NCBI RefSeq assembly: GCF_003342675.1
Contig: NZ_CP031148.1
Coordinates: 3,038,001 to 3,102,000, forward strand
DNA length: 64,000 nt
Direction: 5' to 3'
Source of the DNA: Haloplanus rubicundus
GTDB taxonomy: Archaea > Halobacteriota > Halobacteria > Halobacteriales > Haloferacaceae
Positions 60,937-62,884 of the stretch are shown piece after piece. Under the pieces are notes generated by a model. That model had not been told where the DNA came from and ran no database searches. It worked only from the letters and a program-made list of their open reading frames with translations. Each line of letters starts with the position of its first letter. The first letter of the stretch is position 1. A program made the position numbers and the translations under genes.

Positions 60937-61788
60937 ATGGCCCACATCGAGCGATTGCGACTGTATCCGGTCAAGGGACTCGACGGCATCGACGTCGACA
61001 CCGTCCGGATCACGGACGCGGGCACGCTCGCCGGCGACCGGGAGTTCGCCATGTGCGACCCCGAGGCCGAGGCGGTCGAAACCGGCGCCGACATGCAGAC
61101 GCTCGCCTACAACGGCAAGCAGACCGACCGCATCCACGACGTGCGGACGACGTTCGACCCCGAGACGGCCACCCTGACCGTCGAGCCGAAGACGGGCGGA
61201 GAGCGACGGGCGTTCGACCTCTCGACCGAGGCGGGCCGCGCAGACGCGGGCGCGTGGTTCGGCGATTTCGTCGGCGACCCGGTCGAGTTCCGGCGACACG
61301 AACCCCCGGCGTTCGTCGACCGGCCCGACGCCGGCCCCTCGATCATCAGCACGGCCACGCTATCGGAAGTCGCCTCGTGGTTCGAGGGAATGAGCGTCGA
61401 GGGCGCCCGCCGCCGGCTCCGCGCCAACGTCGAAGTCGACGGCGTCCCCGCGTTCTGGGAGGACCGGTTCGTCGGGGCGGACGCACCCGAATTCGTCGTC
61501 GGCGAGGGCGACGGGGCGGTCCGGTTCGAGGGCGCCGAGCCCTGCGCCCGGTGTGTCGTCCCCAGCCGCGACCCGGAGACGGGCGACCCCCTGCCCGCGT
61601 TCCGGGAGCGCTTCGTCGAGCGCCGAGAGGCGACCTTTCCCGAGTGGGCGGACCGCGACGCGTTCGACCACCTCTACACCGTCATGCTCATCTCGCGGGT
61701 GCCCGAGGTGTCGCGGGAGCGGGCGATTTCGGTGGGGGACGACGTGACGGTGCGGACGACGGCGGGGAACTCGAAGGGTAGTGTTTAG
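60937..61788 (+). CDS. MOSC N-terminal/MOSC-domain protein, 3' end altered by a MITE
   Basis: A 283-residue protein with the MOSC N-terminal beta-barrel (MAHIERLRLYPVKGLDGIDVDTVRI) and the MOSC core with the presumed catalytic Cys in FEGAEPCARCVVPSRDPETGDPLPAF. MOSC domains move sulfur or bind molybdenum cofactor, as in the mARC family. The stop TAG belongs to the left inverted repeat of a MITE. Removing the element and one 8-bp target copy gives a longer end, with GPNI before a TAA at about 62118, replacing GSV. The protein is probably still functional since only the last few residues differ. Confidence 0.9.
   Translation: MAHIERLRLYPVKGLDGIDVDTVRITDAGTLAGDREFAMCDPEAEAVETGADMQTLAYNGKQTDRIHDVRTTFDPETATLTVEPKTGGERRAFDLSTEAGRADAGAWFGDFVGDPVEFRRHEPPAFVDRPDAGPSIISTATLSEVASWFEGMSVEGARRRLRANVEVDGVPAFWEDRFVGADAPEFVVGEGDGAVRFEGAEPCARCVVPSRDPETGDPLPAFRERFVERREATFPEWADRDAFDHLYTVMLISRVPEVSRERAISVGDDVTVRTTAGNSKGSV
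61769..61776. repeat. 8-bp target-site duplication, left
   Basis: ACTCGAAG, immediately outside the left terminal inverted repeat. The identical sequence is immediately outside the right one at 62098-62105. Confidence 0.9.
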
Positions 61789-62097
61789 ATAAGCCTGTGA
61801 AACTGGGACCACCTCGAAAGCCCCCGGCGTCTCGGCTCCCGGGACTCGCTGCGCTCCTCACTACGTTGCGGTGCTTACTTCGTCCGGGTTCGCCGAGACG
61901 CTGGCCCCTTTCAGTCCCGCCCGGCGGCGGCCGGTTGGCCAGCCGATGCGGGCGGGACTGAAAGGGGCGACTCGCTGGGGGAAGGCGGCCGACGCAAGCA
62001 CGCGAGCGAAGCGAGCGCGCGCAGCGAGGCCCCCGACCCCAGCGAGTCGGGGCTTTCGAGGTGTCCTCAATCTAATTGCGCTAATCTAAACAGTGCC
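61777..62097. mobile_element. 321-bp MITE with nested palindromes
   Basis: A non-autonomous element. Terminal inverted repeats are 61777-61790 and 62084-62097 (14 bp, two mismatches, GGTAGTGTTTAGAT versus GGCACTGTTTAGAT), with 8-bp target duplications on both sides. Inside are nested perfect arms: 15 bp (61810-61824/62049-62063), 10 bp (61845-61854/62019-62028) and 19 bp (61904-61922/61950-61968), so the whole element is an imperfect giant palindrome. No transposase is encoded. An 8-bp duplication fits an IS1595-like mobiliser, by inference only. Confidence 0.9.
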
Positions 62098-62105
62098 ACT
62101 CGAAG
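62098..62105. repeat. 8-bp target-site duplication, right
   Basis: ACTCGAAG, matching 61769-61776 exactly. Continuing from here, the interrupted MOSC codons read on to a TAA about 15 bases later. Confidence 0.9.
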
Positions 62106-62145
62106 GGCCCCAACATATAAGACATTACTCTGACAACTTAGGCCC

Positions 62146-62382
62146 GTGACCGACATCGAATCGAAAAAAGAGTTCACGGGAGAGACGATCTGGCTCGTCG
62201 TCGGCGTCCTGTTTTGCTTCCCGTTTGCGATCTACTACTACTTCGCAAACAAGGAGCAGGTGTGGGTGTGTCCGGAATGTCGGGAGTCGATCACGGTTGG
62301 TGCCGGGACGTGCAAACACTGCGGGACCGACCTTTCGGAGTACACTGGGGACGATGAGGAATCCGCTTCGGTGGACGATTGA
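62146..62382 (+). CDS. Membrane-bound zinc-ribbon protein
   Basis: A 78-residue protein: a helix (TIWLVVGVLFCFPFAIYYYF), then a zinc ribbon with pairs CPEC and CKHC, then an acidic tail. Function unknown; such proteins may anchor or sense at the membrane. The GTG start lies about 30 bases after the TATA-like CATATAAG (62113-62121), just beyond the MITE and overlapping the original MOSC stop. It overlaps the next gene by 29 bases. Confidence 0.78.
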   Translation: MTDIESKKEFTGETIWLVVGVLFCFPFAIYYYFANKEQVWVCPECRESITVGAGTCKHCGTDLSEYTGDDEESASVDD

Positions 62383-62884
62383 ACGCGTCGATCGATCGAA
62401 CCCGTTTCTCCTCTCACATCACCCGAGCTGTCGGTACTACGACCACCACACGTTCGAACTGTACGGCGCCGACCTGTGTCTGGGCTGTTTCGTCGTCTAC
62501 CCAGTCGGGGCGCTCGCGCTCGCGACGCTGATCGTCGCTCGACTGGTCACACCGGGTGCGTTCGGCGTCGAAACGCTCGGTCTCTACGGCCTCGGCGCCG
62601 CACTCGTCGCCCCGATGGTGCTGCTGAAACTCGTCGGTGGCAGACGGTCGATGCGGACTCGCATCCTCGCCAAGGCGGGCTTGGCGTGTGGGCTGGCCGT
62701 CCTCGCCTTCCCACTCGTGTTTCGGCCGGACGACCGGCTCCTCACGTTCGGCCTGCTCGCGGGCTTCCTAGCCGTCTACGTCGGCTACAAGGGAGCCACG
62801 GCGCTGGACGACTGCGAGGGATGTCCGGAGTGGGAGCAGGGGGAGTTCCCGGACTGTACGGGGATGGACCTCGACCGGGAGTGA
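62354..62884 (+). CDS. DUF2085-like membrane protein
   Basis: A 176-residue protein with LLSHHPSCRYYDHHTFELYGADLCLGCFVVYPVGAL, the Cys/His pattern and helix of DUF2085-type predicted membrane proteins, and about four further helices; another Cys pair is in DDCEGCPEW near the end. Function unknown. It overlaps the zinc-ribbon protein gene by 29 bases, so the two are co-expressed. Confidence 0.74.
   Translation: MRNPLRWTIERVDRSNPFLLSHHPSCRYYDHHTFELYGADLCLGCFVVYPVGALALATLIVARLVTPGAFGVETLGLYGLGAALVAPMVLLKLVGGRRSMRTRILAKAGLACGLAVLAFPLVFRPDDRLLTFGLLAGFLAVYVGYKGATALDDCEGCPEWEQGEFPDCTGMDLDRE

Follow-up and report, generated by a model that had tools for sequence, protein, structure and literature searches.

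A MITE with IS6-type ends and a conserved haloarchaeal cloverleaf repeat at the end of a MOSC gene in Haloplanus rubicundus

The window analysed here (the whole stretch of 64,000 nucleotides from Haloplanus rubicundus, contig NZ_CP031148.1, positions 3,038,001 to 3,102,000) contains a gene for a MOSC-domain protein, recognized by Pfam MOSC_N and MOSC matches that both exceed their cut-offs, and a small downstream ORF. The end of the MOSC gene is occupied by a 321-bp MITE (Table 1). A preliminary description of this DNA had reported 14-bp terminal inverted repeats, exact 8-bp flanking duplications and three nested perfect inverted arms, all of which are reproduced from the sequence: the left end matches the reverse complement of the right end at 12/14 positions (15/18 when extended), the same octamer stands on both sides, and the arms of 15 bp (61810–61824 / 62049–62063), 10 bp (61827–61836 / 61892–61901) and 19 bp (61904–61922 / 61950–61968) are found in place. 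A fourth perfect pair of 12 bp (61969–61980 / 62037–62048) was absent from that description. From these four sets of arms, one strand of the element is predicted to fold into a cross, with an outer stem enclosing three hairpins. As single-stranded DNA, the element reaches −116.9 kcal/mol, compared to −70.6 ± 4.4 for shuffled sequences (z = −10.5). It contains no transposase gene, its only ORFs being chance ORFs of 69 and 72 aa.

Table 1. Features at the MOSC locus (positions in the window).
Feature	Position	Strand	Basis
Gene for a MOSC-domain protein with inferred start; the element provides its TAG at 61786–61788	60937–61788	+	
Target site duplication ACTCGAAG, left copy, 8 bp	61769–61776	+	
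MITE, 321 bp, IS6-family type ends, without transposase	61777–62097	+	sequence, copies, fold
Left terminal inverted repeat, L type, GGTAGTGTTTAGATAAGC, includes MOSC stop codon	61777–61794	+	
Cloverleaf interior between perfect arms of 15 bp, CACCTCGAAAGCCCC / GGGGCTTTCGAGGTG	61810–62063	+	
Haloarchaeal structured unit, copy 1	61816–61922	+	covariance model R1, 112.8 bits
Palindrome at the center, with a 27-nt loop between perfect arms of 19 bp, GCCCCTTTCAGTCCCGCCC	61904–61968	.	
Haloarchaeal structured unit, copy 2, inverted	61950–62057	-	covariance model R1, 96.5 bits
Right terminal inverted repeat, R type, GGCACTGTTTAGATTAGC	62080–62097	-	
Target site duplication ACTCGAAG, right copy, 8 bp	62098–62105	+	
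Downstream ORF's TATA-like box CATATAA, ending in the TAA of the element-free MOSC frame	62114–62120	+	
Small downstream ORF, zinc-ribbon-like motif, under Pfam cut-offs	62146–62382	+	

The MOSC stop codon indeed lies within the left repeat, as had been described, and removal of the element lets the MOSC frame end in GPNI-TAA (62118–62120) in place of GSV-TAG. The TATA-like box of the next gene, also correctly placed just outside the element, lies 26 bases upstream of the GTG of the downstream ORF. MOSC orthologues in 11 other Haloplanus genomes have a normal end a few codons earlier, and all 11 lack the element, indicating that the insertion struck a dispensable, non-conserved tail. Since the insertion point lies past the conserved MOSC end, the earlier suggestion of little cost to the host gene is plausible. 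A search with joined flanks across the genus returned no contiguous empty site for the window copy in any congener, which is explained by a right flank and downstream genes that are specific to the H. rubicundus genome. The description of the insertion as recent has its basis in the perfect duplication and the absence from congeners, not in an empty site. In two congeners (G004 and G011), MOSC is directly followed by the counterpart of the gene at ~62936 of the window. The two small genes that separate them in H. rubicundus (62146–62884) are missing here in both, so that the MITE borders an insert specific to this lineage.

Other copies, which the preliminary description had proposed to look for, are present in the genome itself (two more of full length and one decayed) and across the genus, with dozens of matches over 12 Haloplanus genomes, most of them 227–493 bp long. 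Exact 8-bp duplications, each of different sequence, flank 13 of the 24 copies with located ends (the window copy and 12 others), where ~0.02 would be expected by chance (our own estimate, from 49 end combinations / 65,536 8-mers per copy in a ±3-base search). The remaining 11 copies have no exact duplication, one pair among them being accounted for by an inversion (see below). When the joined flanks of eleven copies were compared against the genus, base-exact empty sites were found for two: the H. rubicundus copy at C2:2945216 corresponds to a single TGTCGCGG in G009, and the G009 copy at 1782047 to a single GGCGAGCG in H. rubicundus. The expected empty site is therefore clean for two other copies but not found for the window copy, for which element-free MOSC orthologues stand in. 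These independent duplications and empty sites show, at the sequence level, that the family is mobile in Haloplanus. A 64–65-bp miniature (L135, G004:C7:1459888-1459951) consists of the left end, one arm and the right end and is flanked by TGTGACAG as an exact 8-bp duplication. Insertion may thus not require the cloverleaf, or the cloverleaf may have been lost later. A larger cloverleaf copy in the H. rubicundus genome (L021, C2:43014-43391) has IS6-type ends that are decayed or missing.

Two further copies in G004 have mismatched ends: L139 (G004:C7:1576970-1577345) has two L ends and L136 (G004:C7:1814107-1814484) two R ends. The duplication CTCGCGAC, which stems from one original insertion, is divided over the two in inverted orientation, and the ancestral junctions are contiguous elsewhere, one in G000 (H. 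rubicundus), G009 and G001, the other in G009 and G007. As read from these junctions, G004 has undergone a 237-kb inversion through recombination between two MITE copies. A replicative inversion was rejected in view of the L..L and R..R ends and of only one of the two duplications being split.

Searches with the end pattern led to insertion sequences of 697–698 bp in four congeners. Exact 8-bp duplications are found at L126, L128, L129 and L134, with one GGTAGTGTTCAGATAAG-like end and one GGT[GA]CTGTTCAGATTAG-like end. These congeneric insertion sequences have the ends GGTAGTGTTCAGATAAG and GGTGCTGTTCAGATTAGC and overlap PF13610 matches, and they encode a 211-aa transposase of the IS6 family (NF033587, 207.8 bits at a cut-off of 125), the ISH6 model scoring far under its cut-off. 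The two ends of the MITE can be told apart, each resembling the corresponding end of L128/L129 (L 16/18, R 15/18). IS6 members are known for 8-bp duplications and GG...TGTT ends (PMC7986276). Within the H. rubicundus genome, the end-pattern search returned MITE ends only, and no insertion sequence with these ends. The predicted insertion sequence with the same terminal repeats thus exists in congeners, together with an IS6 transposase, but not in the MITE's own genome, whose IS6 ends differ. Its four IS6 copies (L279–L282, at C2:2383k, 1407k and 658k and C3:95k) end in CTTCGTGTTTAGTT, with exact 8-bp duplications at 3/4. The proposal of a transposase encoded elsewhere likewise agrees with the congeners' matching-end IS6 elements and not with the intact resident copies. 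Because the ends of the latter are different, the helper has probably been lost, is external (plasmid-borne or in a congener), or is a cross-acting relative. On the plasmids searched, no MITE ends were found.

We consider it very probable that the feature in the window is a non-autonomous element whose ends are served in trans by an IS6-family transposase, and that it was inserted with an 8-bp duplication into the MOSC tail. An archaeal ISH14/ISH29-like transposase of the IS6 family would recognize the MITE ends in trans, insertion would create the 8-bp duplication as the element lands in the unconserved tail, and the left repeat would then provide the new MOSC stop codon. Movement would presumably follow a replicative cointegrate route, with host recombination resolving the cointegrate. 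The terminal matches are short, and we infer IS6-driven movement from the likeness of the ends.

By its ends and lack of a transposase, the element is an IS6-type MITE, an already known kind. Two IS6-family MITEs are on record in ISfinder, MITEBth2 and MITEHarch3, of 227 and 336 bp (PMC6807381, PMC7986276), both transposase-less and close in length to the Haloplanus copies. MITEHarch3 is haloarchaeal by its name. The Haloplanus MITEs probably form a new family; going by name and listed length, they may be identical or related to MITEHarch3. The archaeal IS6 group of ISH14, ISH29 and ISHarch12 has elements of 696–698 bp encoding a 211-aa transposase (PMC6807381), with the same 8-bp duplications, GG ends and TGTT core; the Haloplanus 697–698-bp elements with their 211-aa product have nearly the same ends, whereas the interior of the MITE is unrelated and encodes no transposase. 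Transposition in the IS6 family normally produces cointegrates. In haloarchaea, which are polyploid and recombine at high levels, the success of an IS6 family without a transposase therefore offers a natural test of the spread and resolution of such elements.

The preliminary description missed that the interior of the element is an independent, structurally conserved repeat. Positions 61810–62063 consist of two inverted copies of one unit around a short core, resulting in a four-way cloverleaf. Each unit is laid out as GAAAGCCCC-stem-loop-stem'-GCCCCTTTCAGTCCC(A/G)CCC, where stem and stem' pair with each other. Among 55 aligned units, 17/19 consensus pairs show compensatory changes, 91.5% of cells are paired (65.7% for shuffled sequences), and covariation scores 0.601 (0.158 shuffled). 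The P2 stem pairs at 9.15/10 positions; exchanging arms from one unit to another lowers this to 4.51, and the 84 units have 70 different arms. The rarity of G–U wobbles (1.9% of consensus pairs) was considered as proof of a structure at the DNA level and not adopted, equal-treatment folding having given 5.3%, versus 6.9% for tRNAs. Complete copies without IS6 ends have terminal inverted ends of their own (AACAnnnnGAAAGCCCC), in which the variable bases also pair. No Rfam family matched the unit at gathering score, by which a known RNA family was rejected, and a conserved 18-mer of the unit had no occurrence in the searched literature. The cloverleaf repeat thus appears undescribed in Rfam and the literature searched, an absence that does not prove novelty. 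Its conserved C motif GGGTGGGACTGAAAGGGG (61950–61968) may resemble to some extent the 3′ end of haloarchaeal type I-B CRISPR repeats (GTGGGATTGAAG).

The exact unit pattern occurs in at least 120 stretches from many haloarchaeal genera. Among the matches listed, 84 distinct units were read, only 23 of which have an IS6-type left end (61/84 without). Genome scans with covariance model R1 gave matches in 110/146 Halobacteriales genomes and 44/57 genera, with at least 25 per genome in many. A phylum-wide sample had matches in 16/120 genomes, every listed match being inside Halobacteriales, and ~100 genomes of the phylum outside this order had none. The interior is therefore not derived from IS6: it is a cloverleaf repeat of conserved structure, found across the haloarchaea and also existing without IS6 ends. 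Five interior matches examined on plasmids had no IS6 ends. Viral or phage carriage was rejected, as neither an exact match to the pattern in IMG/VR nor a match to a phage turned up. A dispersed cloverleaf, present in most haloarchaeal genomes with its structure conserved by covariation, is an expected signature of function or of structure-dependent mobility, and model R1 renders the cloverleaf directly testable.

Several known repeats resemble the unit in part. SMR-A of Haloquadratum walsbyi are numerous ~110-bp repeats that have inverted ends and lack a known transposase (PMC3119063), and the ~110-bp unit fits them in length and inverted ends; SMR-A insert in palindromes of IS605-type elements, have no similarity to each other and make no target duplication (PMC3119063). 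REP/REPIN palindromes and PATEs (IS200/IS605-type) are likewise short structured repeats that form inverted pairs and are dispersed between genes, but the unit differs from them in its length of ~110 bp, its covarying stem and the lack of a TnpB-type motif at the loci examined. An IS200/IS605 end or PATE was rejected as an identity for the unit, given its inverted ends and a strict, weak test that detected no TnpB-like motif in the loci of the 84 units.

The interior is flexible in its arrangement. In L002, L034, L036 and L050 it runs forward relative to the window interior while the outer ends are swapped; several longer copies have the opposite arrangement, with the interior inverted, and in L049 one single hairpin is inverted. 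Interiors are up to 96% identical where the ends have diverged far more. Orthologous IS6-less copies in Haloarcula differ by the loss of whole hairpins, with one site lacking the element, and presence/absence differences between Haloarcula species occur at three sites. The perfect nested arms may promote such inversions and deletions via recombination or replication template switching. Uncultured haloarchaea have single-unit IS6-ended elements of 208–220 bp; among 17 IS6-ended copies, one has an exact duplication and a few have one mismatch. Double-unit IS6-ended elements are found in Haloplanus and Halonotius. As single-unit and double-unit forms both exist, the repeat would have been captured between, or colonized by, IS6 ends at least twice. 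Tentatively, and with somewhat more doubt than confidence, we propose that the interior is an undescribed Halobacteriales-wide four-way-junction repeat, with helices maintained by compensatory changes as their sequence drifts, that acts as folded DNA or RNA, spreads by a route of its own and has repeatedly been hijacked as IS6 cargo.

Could the cloverleaf itself be the mobile entity, moved by an unknown enzyme, with the IS6-like ends incidental or degenerate? The prevalence of units without an IS6-type left end, the inverted repeats of complete IS6-less copies, the many copies per genome and the Haloarcula presence/absence differences all agree with this. In Haloplanus, however, it is the IS6-type ends that define the transposing unit, since the 8-bp duplications directly flank them. 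Moreover, the IS6-less copies showed neither a duplication nor a clean boundary, and some of the Haloarcula differences resemble hairpin deletions in a shared copy, making this reading unlikely for the element in the window.

Duplications of 8 bp are also created by the IS1595/ISH4, ISH6 and IS5/ISH1 families, and IS1595-type genes are encoded in 7/12 Haloplanus genomes. Mobilization by one of these families nevertheless seems very improbable, as the matching-end 697–698-bp elements encode a transposase far over the NF033587 cut-off and far under that of ISH6; an IS1595/ISH4 helper was dropped once the elements sharing these ends turned out to carry an IS6 transposase. Finally, a strong fold at a gene boundary might be expected of an ancient fixed structure, such as a MOSC-operon terminator or regulatory RNA, instead of an insertion. 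With the exact flanking duplication, unrelated flanks around the other copies and 11 element-free MOSC orthologues against it, this reading is scarcely credible, and the dispersed copies and empty sites already refute it.

In Haloparvum sedimenti (L213 4159-4351, also L196 and L203), the left end of the unit lies within a 75-bp tandem duplication containing GAAAGCCCC. The 75-bp periodicity beside these units was considered as CRISPR-like, a reading rejected in favor of a plain tandem duplication.
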